Shown: positions 2,853 to 9,706 of the stretch, piece after piece
How the letters are laid out: each line of letters opens with the position of its first letter
Numbering within the stretch: position 1 is the stretch's first letter
Assembly (NCBI GenBank): GCA_016926755.1
Contig: JAFGNZ010000326.1
Span: 1-64,000, forward strand
From: Myxococcaceae bacterium
GTDB lineage: Bacteria; Myxococcota; Myxococcia; Myxococcales; Myxococcaceae
Direction of reading: 5' to 3'
DNA: 64,000 nucleotides
Notes under the pieces: generated by a model
What the model was told of the DNA's origin: nothing
The model's database searches: none
Seen by the model: the letters and a program-made list of their open reading frames with translations, nothing else
Translations under genes and position numbers: made by a program

Positions 2853-5800
2853 ATGTCCCGTCCCGGCCGCACCCTCCAGGTCCTCCCCGACGCGAACCGG
2901 CGCCAGCAAGTCCTGCGCGCCGCACGGGAAAAGCGCGGCCTCGTTCTGGGATCGGGTTGTCTGACGTGGGACGAATTCGTCTACGCGCTGGGTGGAGCGG
3001 GCGAGCTCAATCGGCGCCCCTGTGCGGCCCCAACCTCGCGCGTCGTGATCAGCGCGCTGGCGCAGGAGCTGGGGGACACGCCCTTCGGGGACTTCGTGAG
3101 CGAGCCAGCCTTCGCGCGCGCCGCGCTCGAGCTGGTGCTGGACATGAAGGCCGGCCGGCTGACGCCGCGCGAGCTGCAGGACGCCGTCGAGGCCCTCCCT
3201 CCGGAGCGGCGCGCGCGGATCCGCGTGCTCGCGGGCCTGTTCGACGCGTACGAGCGGCGCATGGCCGCGCTGGGGCTCGCGGACCGGGAGGAGGTGCTGC
3301 GGGGCTCGCGCGAGGCGCTCAGGCAGGGCCTGTGGCCCTCGGACTGGAAGGACGTGGAGTCCATCGTCCTTCACGGCGTGTACGACGTGCGCCCGTCCGG
3401 GCTGGAGCTCCTCCTGGCGCTGGCGAAGGTGTGCGAGGCGCGAGGCGTCTCCCTGCGGGTGGAGACGCCGGTGGGCGGCTCTCCGGTGGCGGACGCGGCG
3501 CTGGCCTCGCTCTTCCGCGCCTTCGAGAGCCGCGGCGAGCTGGTGGGCCACGTGGACCTGTTCAAGGCGGATCTCACCTTCGAGGCCCGCCCCCTGGCGG
3601 AGCTGGGCCGCCACCTGTTCTCGCCGCGAGTGCCACGCGGGGCGCTGGCGGCCACGGCGGCGGGCACCCTGAGGATGTGGAGCGTGGGCACGGCGCAGGA
3701 CGAGGCCCGGCAGGTGGCTCGGGACGTGCGGCGGCTCGTGTCGGAGGGGATCGCTCCCGATCGGATCGCCATCGCGTGGCGTGCGCCGGGGGCGGAGGTG
3801 CGGTGGCTGGCCGAGGCGCTCGAGGAGCTGGGCGTGCCGGTGCGCCTGCCCTGGGGTGAGCCGCTCGCGGTGACGGGGCCGGTGCGCCTGGCGCTGGAGC
3901 TGCCGCTGCTCGTGGAGGATGGCTTCCCCTCCGAGCGCGTGGCGGAGCTCGTGGCCAGCCGCTATGCCCCTTCGCTCTCCCGAGGGGGGCCCGAGGCTCC
4001 TGGGACGCTCTTCACGCTGGCCGCGGTGCGGGATGACCGGCTGGGCGCCCAGCGCGGGCGCGGCGCGTATGACGTGCGGCTGGAGGCCCTGGCGCGGCGC
4101 ATGGTGGCCTCCCGGGACGAGCGCGCCCACGCCGCGCGGGTGCTGCGCGAGCGGTGCCTGCGGCTGATGGAGTGGTGCCGCCGCATCCCCGAGGCAGGCA
4201 GCGCGCTGGAGCTGCTGGGGGCGTGGTGGCGCGTGGCGCAGCAGCTCGGGCTGCAGGACTCGGAGGGCCCGCTGGAGCCGCGCGAGGAGGGCTCGCTGGG
4301 GGCGCACGCGCTGGAGGCCCGGGCTCGGGACGACGCCGCGCGCCAGGCCCTGCGACTGCGGGTGGGCGAGCTGGAGCGGGCGCTGCGGAGGGTGGGCGGT
4401 GGCCCGAGGCTGTCCCGGCGCACCTTCGGGCGGTGGCTGGTGGACGCGATGCGGGAGGTGTACCTGCCTGCCCGTGGGCCGGCCTCGGGGGCGGTGGAGG
4501 TGCTGGACGTCCGCGAGCTGCCCGGGAGGACGTTTGGCTTCCTCTTCCTCGCGGGGATGACGGAGGGGCGCTTCCCTGGCCGCGAGGAGCCTCACCCGCT
4601 GCTCGGGGATGCCGAGCGCGCCGAGCTCAACCAGCGCCTGGGGCGGGAGGTGTTCCGCCTCACGGGCGGCGAGTTCGAGGATCGCGCTCCCTGGCGGCTC
4701 ACCGAGGATCGGCTGCTCTTCGCGAGCGCGCTCGTGGCGGCCGAGGAGCAGGTGTGCCTGTCCTACGCGGTGGCGGGGGCAGGGGGGCAGGAGCAGGTGC
4801 CCTCGGCCTTCCTGGAGGAGGTGCGGCGGCTCACGGGCATGACGTGGGAGGCGCGCGCGCTGATGGCCGTGCCTCCGCTGCACGAGGTGCTCACGGAGGC
4901 GGAGCTGCGCCAGCGGGTGGCGCTGGAGACGATGGCGCCCGCGCGGCTGCGCGTCACCGAGCCGGACGTGGCGGGGCCGCTCCTCCGGCGGCGCTTCGAG
5001 GCCGAGCCGTGGTTCTCCGCGGCGCACGAGCTGGCCCGGGTGGAGGTGGAGCGCCTCCACTTCTTCAGCAACCCCTCGAGCCAGGTGGGGCCCCACACGG
5101 GCGAGGTGGATGGGCCGGGAGTGCGCGAGGCGCTCCGGGAGGCGTTCCGCTTCGACATCACGAAGCCGCTGTCGGCCTCGGCGCTGGCGCGCTTCGGCAA
5201 CTGTGGCTTCCAGGGCTTCCTGGCGTACGGGCTGAAGGTGGCCGAGGTGGAGGAGCCGGGCGAGGAGTTCGACGCGCGCGGGCGCGGGACGTTCTGGCAC
5301 CGGGTGGTGGAGGAGGTGTTCCAGCGGCTCAAGGAGAAGGGGCTGCTGGGCAAGGCGCCGGAGGAGATCCCCGAGGCGGTGCTGGCCGAGGCGCTCGACG
5401 AGGCGGTGCGCTACTTCGAGGATCGCTACCACGTGGGGCACCCGGTGCTGTGGCAGCTCGCGAAGGAGCGCGCGCGGGCCATGGTGCGGCGCATCCTGAA
5501 TGACGAGCGGCGCGGCCTGCCCTTCGAGCGTTACCTGCCGGAGGGCTTCGAGCTGAAGTTCGGCCCGGGCGCGGACGAGGACCCCTGGCAGAACGTGTTC
5601 CTCTACGCGGGCGAGGAGGCCATCTACTTCGAGGGGAAGATCGATCGGCTGGACAAGAGCGTGGGAGACGTAGGCGTCATCGACTACAAGTCGGGACGCC
5701 TGGACAAGCGGGCGCTGCGCGAGCGGCTGTTGTCCTCGGACTTCCAGCTCCCGCTCTACCTCTACGCGGCGCGCGCCAGCGGCCATCGGGAGGCTCGCAA

Positions 5801-6071
5801 CGCCGCGTGGTTCTCGCTGCGCACGGGGACGACGCTGCACCTGTCGGAGGTGCTGTCGGAGGCCGAGGTGGAGGCCATGCTCTCCACGGATCCAGCGGAG
5901 CGCGCGCGGCTGGCGGAGGAGGGCGGCCTCAACCTGGCGAACGCGGTGGAGGGGCTGGTGCGCGCGGCGCGCGAGGGGAAGTTCGCGATGCGACCGAAGG
6001 ACTGTGGCGGGTGCGGCTACCGGGCGGTGTGCCGCATCACGGAGCGGCGGGTGGTGGAGGAGAGCGCATGA
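2853..6071 (+). CDS. addB: AddB-like nuclease subunit of a helicase-nuclease
   Basis: A 1072-residue protein with an inactive helicase-like body and a C-terminal RecB-family nuclease. The N-terminus lacks a Walker A loop, as expected of the AddB side. The nuclease core reads GTFWHR, then GKIDRLD and VIDYKSG (catalytic Lys near residue 946), then FQLPLYLYA. One cysteine near residue 783 (GNCGF) and three near 1050 (C-x2-C-x5-C) match the iron-sulfur cluster staple of AddB and RecB-type nucleases. Its stop overlaps the start of the next gene by 4 nt (ATGA), so the two subunits are translationally coupled. Together they would process double-strand ends for RecA-dependent repair. The similarity is to the AddB/RexB group generally, and the exact subfamily is uncertain. 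Confidence 0.9.
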   Translation: MSRPGRTLQVLPDANRRQQVLRAAREKRGLVLGSGCLTWDEFVYALGGAGELNRRPCAAPTSRVVISALAQELGDTPFGDFVSEPAFARAALELVLDMKAGRLTPRELQDAVEALPPERRARIRVLAGLFDAYERRMAALGLADREEVLRGSREALRQGLWPSDWKDVESIVLHGVYDVRPSGLELLLALAKVCEARGVSLRVETPVGGSPVADAALASLFRAFESRGELVGHVDLFKADLTFEARPLAELGRHLFSPRVPRGALAATAAGTLRMWSVGTAQDEARQVARDVRRLVSEGIAPDRIAIAWRAPGAEVRWLAEALEELGVPVRLPWGEPLAVTGPVRLALELPLLVEDGFPSERVAELVASRYAPSLSRGGPEAPGTLFTLAAVRDDRLGAQRGRGAYDVRLEALARRMVASRDERAHAARVLRERCLRLMEWCRRIPEAGSALELLGAWWRVAQQLGLQDSEGPLEPREEGSLGAHALEARARDDAARQALRLRVGELERALRRVGGGPRLSRRTFGRWLVDAMREVYLPARGPASGAVEVLDVRELPGRTFGFLFLAGMTEGRFPGREEPHPLLGDAERAELNQRLGREVFRLTGGEFEDRAPWRLTEDRLLFASALVAAEEQVCLSYAVAGAGGQEQVPSAFLEEVRRLTGMTWEARALMAVPPLHEVLTEAELRQRVALETMAPARLRVTEPDVAGPLLRRRFEAEPWFSAAHELARVEVERLHFFSNPSSQVGPHTGEVDGPGVREALREAFRFDITKPLSASALARFGNCGFQGFLAYGLKVAEVEEPGEEFDARGRGTFWHRVVEEVFQRLKEKGLLGKAPEEIPEAVLAEALDEAVRYFEDRYHVGHPVLWQLAKERARAMVRRILNDERRGLPFERYLPEGFELKFGPGADEDPWQNVFLYAGEEAIYFEGKIDRLDKSVGDVGVIDYKSGRLDKRALRERLLSSDFQLPLYLYAARASGHREARNAAWFSLRTGTTLHLSEVLSEAEVEAMLSTDPAERARLAEEGGLNLANAVEGLVRAAREGKFAMRPKDCGGCGYRAVCRITERRVVEESA

Positions 6072-9000
6072 GCGCGGTGTCTCCCCTGGCGCTGGAGCGC
6101 AACCTCGCGCTCATGGCGGGCGCGGGCGCGGGCAAGACGTACAGCCTGGTGACGATGGTGCTGCACCTGCTCGCGGGGGCGCGCGAGGCGGGCGCTCCGC
6201 TCAGGCCTTCGCGGCTGTGCATGCTGACGTTCACGGACAAGGCCGCGGCGGAGATGCGCGCGCGGACGCGGGCCCGCCTGGACGCGCTGGCGCAGGGCGA
6301 GGCGCAGGAGCCGGAGCTGCGCGCCTCGCTGGAGCGGCTGGGGCGCCCGTTCCCCGCGCAGGACACCTGGCGCGCGCTGCGGGAGGAGCTGGGCGCGGCC
6401 ACGGTGGGCACCTTCCACTCTCTCTGTGGTCAGCTGCTGCGCCGCGCGCCGCCCGGGCTGGGCATCGACCCGGCCTTCGAGGTGCTCGATGAGCTGGAGG
6501 CGCTGGGGCTGGTGCAGGACGTGTGCGAGCGCGTGGTGCTGGACGCGCTGGAGCTGGGCGATGGACAGGTGCGCGAGCTGTGCCAGGAGCTGACGTTCTC
6601 CGGCACGGGGTTCTCCGATGGCCTCGTCGCCTCGCTGAGGCAGGTCTACGGCAAGCTGCGCGAGGAAGGGCTGCGAGCGATCTCCGCGGCCATCTCGAAC
6701 CCGGAGGAGGCCCGACAGGAGCTGGAGGCGCTCTTCCACGAGGCGCTGCGGCAGTGCGCGTCGGCGCGGGAGCTGGACGCGAAGGGCGAGTGGAGCCGCC
6801 TGCGCGCCGCCTGTGAGCGGGCGTTGGAGGGGATGACGCCGGAGAACCTCTTCGAGGCGGAGCGGCTGCCTTCGCTCAAGGCCGCGTTCCTGGCGGACGG
6901 CCGCAACTTCGCGCGGCTGAGCAAGGGCGCGGCGGGCCCCATCCGGGCGCTGTACTGGCTCGTGTTCGGCAAGAGCGACGGCTCGGTGATGCGGCTGGAG
7001 GATGGGTACGCCGCGTGGCGGACCGCGCCCTTCGAGGCCACCTTCCGCGAGCTGCTCCACCGGGTGGAGGTGCGCCACGACGCCGAGTTCGTCCGGCGCA
7101 ACGTCTTCGACTTCACGGCCCTGCTGGTGAAGGCCAGGGATCTGCTGCGCGATCACCCGGCCTTCCGCCGCCAGGTGCAGGAGCGGATGGGCGCGCTGCT
7201 GGTGGACGAGTTCCAGGACACCAACCGCCTGCAGCTCGAGCTGGTGCTGTTGCTGGCGGAGCGGCGCGAGGGAGGGCCGAGGCCGGTGCGCCCGGACGAG
7301 GAGCTGCGGGCCGCGCTCCCGCTGGAGCCCGCGTTCCTGTGCGCGGTGGGTGATCGCAAGCAGTCCATCTACGAGTTCCGCGGCGCGGACGTCTCCGTCT
7401 TCGCGCTGCTGGCGGACAAGATCGTCTCCGAGGGAGGGACGCGAGACTTCCTGCGGCACAACCGTCGCTCGGTGCCGGCGCTGCTGGACTTCTTCAACCG
7501 GGCCTTCGCGGGCGTGTTGGTGGCGAGAGATCCACCACGCCCCTACGAGGTGGCGTACGTCCCCGAGGAGGATGATCTGGCGCCGGTGCGCCGCGCGCTG
7601 GCCGATGGGCCCGCGGTGGAGCGGCTGCTGCTGGGCGAGTCGGAGTCCACGGCGGAGGCCCGCGGCAAGGACGCCGAGGCGGTGGCCATGCGGCTGCGGG
7701 CGATGCTCGCTCCGGGCGCCACGCCCTGTGTGACGAACGAGGACGGCCAGCGCCAGCGCCCCGCGCGCGGCGGAGAGGTGGCCATCCTCCTGAGGACCTT
7801 CACCCACCTGGAGGTGTACCGCCAGGCGCTCATCCGCCACGGCGTCCCGCACCGGGTGCTGCGCGGGCGTGGCTTCTACGGGGCCCAGGAGGTGCTGGAC
7901 CTGGCCTCGCTGCTGGCGCTGCTCTCGGACTCGGACGACACCCTGGCGCTGTCAGCCGTGCTGCGCTCGCCGCTGGTGGGCCTGTCGGACGCCTCGCTCT
8001 TCCGGCTGGCCGGCGAGGAGGGGCTGAGGCTGGAGCGCGTGCGGAAGACGGAGCTGTCCGCGTGCGAGCTGCCTCCTCGCGAACGGATACGGCTGGAGCG
8101 CTTCCTGGCGGCGCTGCCGGCGCTGCGGCGTGAGCGGGATCGGCTCGGGGTGCGCGCCCTGCTGCAGGTGGCCCTGGAGGTGACGGGCTACCGCGAGGCG
8201 ATGGCGGGCACGCCCTACGCGGAGCAGGCCAGCGCCAACATCGACAAGCTGCTGGCGCTCGCGGGCCGGCGGGACGAGCGCGGGACGGGCGGGTGCACGG
8301 CGTTCGCGCGGGAGCTGCGGATGCTCGCCGACGCGGATCCCACCGAGGCGCAGGCGGATCTGCTGGACGCGGGAGATCCGCGCGCGGTGCAGATCCTCAC
8401 GATCCACCGGGCCAAGGGGCTCGAGTGGCCCGTGGTGGTGGTGCCCGCGCTCGGGGGCAAGCGGCGCGTCATGAGCGCCCGCGCCTGGTTCGAGCGCACC
8501 CACGGGCTGGCGCTGCGGCCCTGGCTCCCGGACACGCTGGCGGACTTCCGCTCCCGGCGCTTCGAGCGGGTGAAGGAGGAGCTGAAGGCCCGGGAGCTGG
8601 CCGAGTACCGGCGGCTCCTCTACGTGGCCCTCACCCGCGCTCGGGACATGCTCATCCTCTCCGGCTCCGCGGAGCGGGGGGCCTCGGACTCCTGGTGGCA
8701 CATGCTCGACGCGGGCCTGGGCGCGGACTCGGAGCTGCGCGCGCGGGTGCGGGACGTGGACGTAGACGCACTCCCTCCGCCCGCGGATCCGCTGCCGCCG
8801 AGCGCGGACGAGCTCGAGGAGGCCGCGGCCCGGGTGGAGGCCGCGGTGCAACGGGTTCGAGGGGGAGATACCATGGCCGAGCCAGAAGACGCCTTCTCCT
8901 CGACCGCGTCGCTCCAGGACTTCATGGCCTGCCCGCGGCGCTACCGGTACATGCACCAGCTCGGCATGTGTGGCCCTCACCCATGGGAGCTGCCTTCGCG

Positions 9001-9706
9001 GAGCGTGCCGCCGTGGGTGGAGCTCGAGTCCTGGCTGGCGACCCTCGGGGCGGCGCAGCTCATCCCGCGCCTCCTCGGGAGGGTGGATCTGCGGATGGCG
9101 GGAGCGCCCGCTCCGGAGCGCCGCGCGCACGTGGAGAAGCTCCTGCGAGGCTTCGGGAGGCTCCCGGGCGAGGAGGGGATGGAAGAGGTGCTGGGGATGG
9201 TGGAGCGGTTCCTGGCGTCCGCGTTCGCCCAGCGGCTGGCGGCGAGCCCGGCGCCGAGCGTCCATCGCGAGCTGTCCTTCGTGCTCGATCTCCCCTCGAG
9301 CGGCGCGCGGGGGAGGACGTCGGTGAGCGATGAGATGGATCTGCTGTGGGAGACGCCGGAGGGCGAGGCCTGGGTGGTGGCCTGGCGGCCGTGTCGTCGT
9401 CACCCGCTGGGCGCGGCGGCGTACGCGCATGAGCTGGTGGCCCAGGGGCTGGCGGCGAGGCGCCTGGTGCGCGAGGGGGTGACCGTACGGGTAGGGGTGC
9501 TCTTCCTGGGCGAGCCCTCCCCGGAGCCGGAGTTCCTCGCCATCCCCGGAGGGCTGGAGGAGGCGGCAGGACGGCTGGGGGAGGGCGTGCGGGCCCTGAC
9601 CCGGGGCAACCTGCGGAAGGAGTGGCCCGGCCGCGAGCGGGCAACCTGCCAGGCCCTGCACTGTGGCTTCGCGGAACACTGTCACCCCTCCCCCAGCACA
9701 TGCTAA
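6068..9706 (+). CDS. addA: AddA-like UvrD/Rep helicase with degenerate nuclease domain
   Basis: A 1212-residue superfamily 1A helicase. Visible motifs: Walker A AGAGAGKT (residues 17-24), motif II LLVDEFQDT (near 380), motif III GDRKQSIYEFRGAD, motif V TIHRAKGLEWP and motif VI YVALTRARD. The C-terminus keeps the nuclease fold and its iron-sulfur cysteines: CPRRY near 955, then C-x4-C-x5-C near 1195-1206. The active site is altered. DEMDLLWE keeps the first acidic residues, but the expected D-Y-K-T strand is VAWRP. The nuclease of this subunit is therefore probably dead, leaving cutting to AddB. The ATG at 6068 is fixed by the 4-nt overlap with addB. Confidence 0.9.
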   Translation: MSAVSPLALERNLALMAGAGAGKTYSLVTMVLHLLAGAREAGAPLRPSRLCMLTFTDKAAAEMRARTRARLDALAQGEAQEPELRASLERLGRPFPAQDTWRALREELGAATVGTFHSLCGQLLRRAPPGLGIDPAFEVLDELEALGLVQDVCERVVLDALELGDGQVRELCQELTFSGTGFSDGLVASLRQVYGKLREEGLRAISAAISNPEEARQELEALFHEALRQCASARELDAKGEWSRLRAACERALEGMTPENLFEAERLPSLKAAFLADGRNFARLSKGAAGPIRALYWLVFGKSDGSVMRLEDGYAAWRTAPFEATFRELLHRVEVRHDAEFVRRNVFDFTALLVKARDLLRDHPAFRRQVQERMGALLVDEFQDTNRLQLELVLLLAERREGGPRPVRPDEELRAALPLEPAFLCAVGDRKQSIYEFRGADVSVFALLADKIVSEGGTRDFLRHNRRSVPALLDFFNRAFAGVLVARDPPRPYEVAYVPEEDDLAPVRRALADGPAVERLLLGESESTAEARGKDAEAVAMRLRAMLAPGATPCVTNEDGQRQRPARGGEVAILLRTFTHLEVYRQALIRHGVPHRVLRGRGFYGAQEVLDLASLLALLSDSDDTLALSAVLRSPLVGLSDASLFRLAGEEGLRLERVRKTELSACELPPRERIRLERFLAALPALRRERDRLGVRALLQVALEVTGYREAMAGTPYAEQASANIDKLLALAGRRDERGTGGCTAFARELRMLADADPTEAQADLLDAGDPRAVQILTIHRAKGLEWPVVVVPALGGKRRVMSARAWFERTHGLALRPWLPDTLADFRSRRFERVKEELKARELAEYRRLLYVALTRARDMLILSGSAERGASDSWWHMLDAGLGADSELRARVRDVDVDALPPPADPLPPSADELEEAAARVEAAVQRVRGGDTMAEPEDAFSSTASLQDFMACPRRYRYMHQLGMCGPHPWELPSRSVPPWVELESWLATLGAAQLIPRLLGRVDLRMAGAPAPERRAHVEKLLRGFGRLPGEEGMEEVLGMVERFLASAFAQRLAASPAPSVHRELSFVLDLPSSGARGRTSVSDEMDLLWETPEGEAWVVAWRPCRRHPLGAAAYAHELVAQGLAARRLVREGVTVRVGVLFLGEPSPEPEFLAIPGGLEEAAGRLGEGVRALTRGNLRKEWPGRERATCQALHCGFAEHCHPSPSTC

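Follow-up and report, generated by a model that had tools for sequence, protein, structure and literature searches.

A myxobacterial AddAB with probably a single working nuclease: the helicase subunit lacks nuclease residues and keeps the cysteines of a predicted iron staple

The DNA analyzed here (the window) is a stretch of 64,000 nucleotides from a Myxococcaceae bacterium (GenBank assembly GCA_016926755.1, contig JAFGNZ010000326.1, positions 1 to 64,000), and its genes addB and addA encode an AddAB helicase-nuclease whose helicase subunit AddA carries a nuclease domain with a degenerate active site. The closest described systems are summarized, here and below, from the accessible parts of the papers cited. 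In Bacillus subtilis AddAB the nuclease of AddA acts on the 3'-terminated strand, and once AddB holds Chi this strand is kept from it, while degradation of the 5' strand by AddB goes on (PMC4824097, PMC4027173). In AddB and Dna2 an iron-sulfur cluster staples together the extensions at the N and C termini, and a loop that it supports turns the channel into a tunnel (PMC4716839); such nuclease domains are named "iron staples" (PMC7430649). RecBCD works with one nuclease, the dead nuclease of RecC forming a hoop for one strand (PMC1185551). In six strains of isopod Wolbachia a premature stop in addA removes the whole nuclease domain, and AddAB is thought to be still working (PMC4224334).

The myxobacterial pair comprises the following genes and domains:

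2853..6071, + strand: addB, 1072 aa, open frame from the ATG at 2853 to the stop at 6071; PDDEXK_1, 124.6 bits (Pfam)
6068..9706, + strand: addA, 1212 aa, open frame from the ATG at 6068 to the stop at 9706; UvrD-helicase, 162.8 bits (Pfam)
6068..8707, + strand: AddA motor region, about residues 1-880
8810..9703, + strand: AddA nuclease-like domain, residues 915-1212
5160..6038, + strand: AddB nuclease domain, about residues 770-1062 (Pfam stretch 773-1061), catalytic positions intact

The genes are adjacent, with the stop of addB and the start of addA overlapping in ATGA. Both subunits were identified by Pfam and by matches to B. subtilis (the addA product against the PDB sequence of AddA, E 3.2e-36; the addB profile against AddB, E 9e-40), so the AddAB pair that a previous interpretation made from the letters alone (the sequence-only reading) had placed at 2853-9706 is correct in identity and coordinates. 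AddA scores 214.8 of 860.75 bits and 205.2 of 707.65 bits against the curated NCBIfam cut-offs of TIGR02784 and TIGR02785, and AddB 81.4 of 903.7 bits against that of the AddB family; being far below these cut-offs, the two proteins are divergent members of their families. The SF1A helicase motifs are present in AddA, as evidenced by the UvrD-helicase match and the invariant motif columns, and its PADLOC matches (among the matches listed, 25 of 38) are UvrD-type helicase models, for example GajB. AdnA, from the mycobacterial AdnAB, carries a helicase motor domain. No UvrD match was found in AddB with Pfam at E up to 0.001, indicating that this pair does not share the AdnAB arrangement with a motor domain in both subunits.

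The AddA nuclease site was read from alignment with orthologues. The search for AddA covered 145 genomes of the order Myxococcales, and its nuclease domain was readable in 115 of them (108 plus 7 added later); the other 30 had no clear orthologue, had fragments, or had a sequence that was not fetched. A phylum-wide search served to supply homologues, not counts. The positions concerned, all in AddA, are:

8930..8932, + strand: Cys955, first staple cysteine
9065..9067, + strand: Pro1000, aligned with the motif-I His, which is found in 43 of 43 active sequences
9269..9271, + strand: Glu1068, kept here and lost in most of the main dead-site clade
9338..9340, + strand: Asp1091, kept
9380..9388, + strand: Ala1105-Trp-Arg, replacing Asp-Tyr-Lys
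9431..9445, + strand: Glu1122 and Gln1126, replacing the Gln and the last Tyr
9647..9682, + strand: Cys1194, Cys1199 and Cys1205, remaining staple cysteines

Residues 1104-1108 (9377-9391) read VAWRP at a column that is DYK or DFK in all 47 active orthologues. The replacement of the D-Y-K-T strand by VAWRP, pointed out in the sequence-only reading, is thus confirmed, and the motif-I His, the Gln and the last Tyr are further losses. In sum, the PD-(D/E)XK site of the window AddA has lost the His, the metal-binding Asp (Ala1105), the Lys, the Gln and the Tyr, and on this alignment AddA does not have the residues of a catalytic nuclease. The first acidic residues, described earlier as kept, are indeed in place as Glu1068 and Asp1091, the former being untypical of its clade, and so are the iron-sulfur cysteines: C955, C1194, C1199 and C1205 span the domain as in an iron staple, and a 4Fe-4S cluster is predicted there. 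The PDDEXK_1 model gives this domain 19.9 bits, below the Pfam cut-off of 22, and three active orthologues 84-87; two other copies of the main dead-site clade reach 33 and 48 bits, above the cut-off, and in a second dead-site lineage one copy scores 14 bits and one has no match. At the metal-Asp column of PDB chains, wild-type AdnB has DWK and the AdnB D1014A mutant AWK; in 3u44 the B. subtilis AddA chain has AYK there, which we take to be an engineered change.

The loss is widespread. Sixty-five of the 115 genomes lack the metal-binding Asp, and they comprise every readable member of nine Myxococcaceae genera (g1, g2, g3, g5, g6, g7, g8, g19 and g20), among which g19 includes a Myxococcus and g6 a Corallococcus. 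Three more genomes (G086, G122 and G123) form a separate dead lineage, so that this Asp is lost in all 68 dead-site sequences, whether or not a shifted residue supplies a lysine as the sequence-only reading considered. In the remaining 47, every catalytic residue (the middle position of DYK being Tyr or Phe) is present together with the four AddA cysteines; the active site is kept in readable members of families f2, f3, f5 and f6 and of several Myxococcaceae genera. The change, whose fixation across myxobacteria was to be checked according to the sequence-only reading, is thus fixed among those members of a single large Myxococcaceae clade that could be read, a smaller second loss adding to it, and not in the other families and several genera. 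Chance and sequencing or assembly error were rejected as explanations, because all 65 readable members of the nine genera, and the separate lineage of three, lack the same Asp, which the other 47 sequences have.

Among 62 sequences of the main dead-site clade, the Asp column holds A in 31, L in 16, V in 7, S in 4 and T in 4, Ala being the commonest, and the Lys column K in 34, R in 25 and L in 3. The Glu corresponding to Glu1068 is kept in 2 of the 61 sequences with a residue there, and the motif-I His in 1 of 61 (L022), which has no other catalytic residue. Asp1091 is D in 62 of 62 sequences and in the three added later. The AddA cysteines are found in 61/61, 58/58, 58/58 and 58/59 main-clade sequences, the exception (L132) being a contig end; of the three later copies, one is complete for the four cysteines and the others break off ahead of the last three. 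Both dead lineages retain the cysteines as far as their contigs extend.

Around the invariant Asp1091, the residues His1066, Trp1094, Glu1100 and Arg1111 (window 9263-9400) are 98-100% conserved in the dead clade and not in active relatives. They belong to a wider pattern of 28 domain columns that are at least 97% conserved in the dead clade and not conserved, or conserved as another residue, in the active set, part of which only reflects closer relatedness. It is conceivable that the domain retains nuclease activity through a site rearranged onto Asp1091 and these four residues, which the invariance of Asp1091 in the main clade and the dead-clade-specific columns would fit. We consider this very improbable: the lost Asp has no acidic substitute in its column, the His, Gln and Tyr are gone as well, and L044 of the second dead lineage has Ala at the Asp1091 column.

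A tree built from the helicase columns only (77 of 108 sequences) needs two changes from active to dead, and well-supported branches force two. The active genera g10 and g14 cluster with the main dead clade. The long branches of L044 and L046/L086 meet on the tree, so the second loss may itself be two and its single origin is unsure.

The motor and nuclease regions of the dead AddAs evolve differently. Of the columns conserved in active relatives, the main dead clade keeps 60 of 63 in the helicase versus 7 of 16 in the nuclease domain, and the second lineage 57 of 63 versus 5 of 16, four of these five being the cysteines. The median omega of dead pairs is 0.415 for the nuclease domain and 0.337 for the helicase (1756 pairs, which are not independent). 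Since omega is saturated in active pairs, rates were compared at matched helicase distance: in three distance classes, the nuclease-domain distance relative to the helicase is 2.48, 2.06 and 2.01 in dead pairs versus 1.80 (3 pairs), 1.36 and 0.93 in active pairs. Constraint on the dead domain is relaxed, not gone: it evolves about twice as fast as the helicase part and stays under purifying selection. The faster evolution and the nine of 16 conserved nuclease columns that were not kept could mean that the domain is simply decaying, with no remaining role, after cutting became unimportant, and the natural deletion of the whole domain in isopod Wolbachia (PMC4224334) provides a precedent. Such decay appears quite unlikely in view of the cysteines kept in both dead lineages, the retention of Asp1091 throughout the main clade, an omega well below 1, an AddA length that, 3 fragments aside, is about 1150-1257 aa, and a confident predicted fold.

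The AlphaFold model of the window AddA domain, made from a 56-sequence alignment of dead and active copies, has a pLDDT of 92.0 and a pTM of 0.86. For the domain of an active sister (L031) the values are 92.1 and 0.85, and its main fold elements follow the same order; because of the active rows in the alignment, the shared fold is partly built in. The best solved match of the dead domain in VIA-align is AdnA (Z 14.3, 244 aligned residues, rmsd 5.1), followed by ACE1 (13.4), AddB (13.2), Cas4 (12.6), RecB (10.7) and RecC (6.2); only the best chain per entry is given, which hides the Z of B. subtilis AddA itself. Foldseek detected AddA chains at E 2.2e-6 to 4.1e-6, with TM-scores by query length of about 0.5 at best. 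The AddA C-terminal domain is thus predicted to retain the RecB-type nuclease fold.

The partner subunit has no such losses. The sequence-only reading had noted IDYKSG in AddB, and the motif (IDYKS) is there with the other catalytic positions (H816, E900, D931, D944-Y-K, Q965 and Y969) and the cysteines of an intact iron-staple nuclease, the following being invariant in the AddB alignment A2:

5202..5204, + strand: AddB iron-staple Cys784
5682..5690, + strand: AddB D944-Y945-K946
6003..6032, + strand: AddB iron-staple Cys1051, Cys1054 and Cys1060

Of 60 main-clade loci, 59 keep all eight catalytic positions and four cysteines, as do 36 of the 39 active loci; the other four loci are gapped at some positions. 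In the second dead lineage AddB is complete and intact in L044 and intact where aligned in L046, while L086 yielded no AddB. Judged from its residues, the window complex would therefore not have two working nucleases.

The AddB nuclease could now serve both strands, like the single RecB nuclease of RecBCD, and the enzyme would then be fully degradative until a Chi-like signal. In favour of this, RecBCD works with one nuclease, that of RecC being dead (PMC1185551), and neither the scanner region nor the nuclease of AddB is relaxed. This explanation is unlikely, however, as the relative rate of the AddB nuclease shows no shift (1.19-1.33 in dead pairs versus 1.07-1.31 in active pairs), its catalytic positions are unchanged, and B. 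subtilis AddAB has a separate channel and nuclease for each strand (PMC4824097, PMC4027173). For the N-terminal scanner the relative rate is 0.77-1.11 in dead pairs (n = 7 to 24) versus 1.14-1.51 in active pairs, the numbers being small. Scanner residues of B. subtilis, numbered as in PMC4824097, were mapped by count on the AddB profile alignment. All 10 main-clade AddBs readable at the F210 position carry V or I there, while active ones vary. At the E129 position 9 of 10 readable main-clade AddBs have D and 1 has A, and R is found at the R629 position in 46 of 46; these positions say little on Chi. We know of no Chi sequence in this group.

We propose, with a probability of roughly 0.65, that this AddAB has a single working nuclease, that of AddB for the 5' strand, and that the AddA domain is a stapled guide for the 3' strand. 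The AddA motor would still draw in and unwind the DNA, and the iron-staple nuclease of AddB would still cut the 5' strand. Without the metal-binding Asp and the His, Lys, Gln and Tyr of the site, the AddA iron-staple domain would be unable to cut the 3' strand, and it would be retained because it forms part of the 3'-strand exit channel and of the AddA-AddB body, tied by the predicted cluster. The product would carry a 3' tail from the start, resembling what B. subtilis AddAB leaves once it has met Chi, and protecting the 3' strand from AddA would cease to be a way for Chi to act. The machine probably trims only one DNA strand; this strand bias and the resulting outcome of resection are what we infer. 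The idea that the cysteines outlived cutting in a one-nuclease AddAB, raised in the sequence-only reading, gains support from the 115-genome comparison, the tree, the domain rates and the confident fold model.

Several observations weigh against this proposal. The Lys column is still Lys in 34 of 62 main-clade sequences, so the argument rests on the loss of the Asp, not of the Lys. The dead domain evolves faster than its active relatives, as early decay would also give, and cluster binding by AddA is a guess from cysteine spacing and homology. Finally, the unrelaxed AddB scanner region does not favour a lost Chi recognition, and Chi-like recognition may therefore persist for pausing or other steps.

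Compared with B. subtilis AddAB, the window pair has the same two-subunit plan, with an AddA motor bearing a RecB-type domain and an AddB bearing an iron-staple nuclease. Both nucleases work there, one per strand, whereas here the AddA site appears dead; the staple is described there for AddB, while here AddA has four cysteines too. The stapled active AddABs of other Myxococcales (e.g. L031, L037 and L063) are orthologous and have four cysteines in both AddA and AddB, but keep all catalytic residues in 47 of 47 cases. RecBCD, likewise a helicase complex that processes breaks, pairs a live RecB-type nuclease with a dead one, the dead copy being in RecC, which is likened to AddB, and not in the motor subunit as here; no RecB above the family cut-off is found in this genome (RecC and RecD were not searched for). 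Isopod Wolbachia offer another natural loss at the AddA nuclease, although there the whole domain is cut off and here the cysteines and, by prediction, the fold are kept, the change being fixed over nine genera. AdnA chains of mycobacterial AdnAB are the best structural matches of the dead domain, but natural AdnB has DWK and the AddB here no UvrD-helicase match.

Our literature search found no paper on a dead AddA in myxobacteria, although Cromie 2009, on AddAB/RecBCD distribution and known to us by citation only, may mention one. Nor did it find one devoted to a stapled AddA, whether active or dead, the AddAB staple being described for AddB in the accessible text. Set against that text, AddAB, the dead nuclease of RecC and the AddA domain deletion in Wolbachia are known, and an AddA with a dead site and kept staple cysteines appears new. 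The iron staple and catalysis, normally fused, thus appear naturally separated in at least two lineages. This makes it testable whether the job of the staple is to hold or guide DNA rather than cut it, and whether a cell can dispense with the destructive AddAB phase thought to be controlled by Chi; it also bears on the origin of one-nuclease machines such as RecBCD, and the clade concerned includes the laboratory genus Myxococcus. More tentatively, and at somewhat less than even odds, the enzyme of this predatory clade would be locked in a recombination-promoting state, its AddA nuclease having been turned into a strand guide with an iron staple, mirroring RecC, at least two independent times, with no loss of the AddB nuclease seen.

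The source assembly is a 9.6-Mb draft in 409 contigs, in which profile searches did not find a second AddA- or RecB-type enzyme. The best match of the RecB model is the window AddA (122.4 of 696.05 bits, the family cut-off being unreached); the others are frames of 305-836 aa, two of them at contig ends and possibly halves of one UvrD-sized gene. PDDEXK_1 matches AddB and one 412-aa Cas4-like protein elsewhere in the genome (L240), which stands alone and has WKTG and C-terminal cysteines. Compensation by a second AddAB was rejected, as a further AddA-like gene (at least 53% identity to L079 in the best piece, at most 7 candidates scored per genome) is carried by 18 of the family's 96 genomes and by none of the 68 dead-site genomes. 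Six such genes that were read (L079-L084, four in the family and two in f2) have a (D/E)FKTD motif without the cysteine triple. The stapled AddA had no good match in G049, G053, G084, G092 and G124 (87-98% complete), of which G049 and G053 have a further AddA instead.

In a cross-phylum AddA sample, of whose 96 loci regular expressions classed 92, six AddA-like proteins from Acidobacteria, Verrucomicrobiaceae, a cyanobacterial metagenome-assembled genome and others (L197, L200, L205, L212, L217 and L224) end about 50-100 residues past helicase motif VI, and their reading frames contain no nuclease domain. Seventy-two full-length domains have a DxK-like motif, and 13 of these also have the C-terminal cysteine triple, the part of the staple that was scored. 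The DxK motif and the triple occur together in L150, L151, L154, L158, L161, L166, L168, L181, L183, L189, L202, L223 and L229, from other Myxococcota and other phyla; on these motifs, the stapled AddA may be a wider type.

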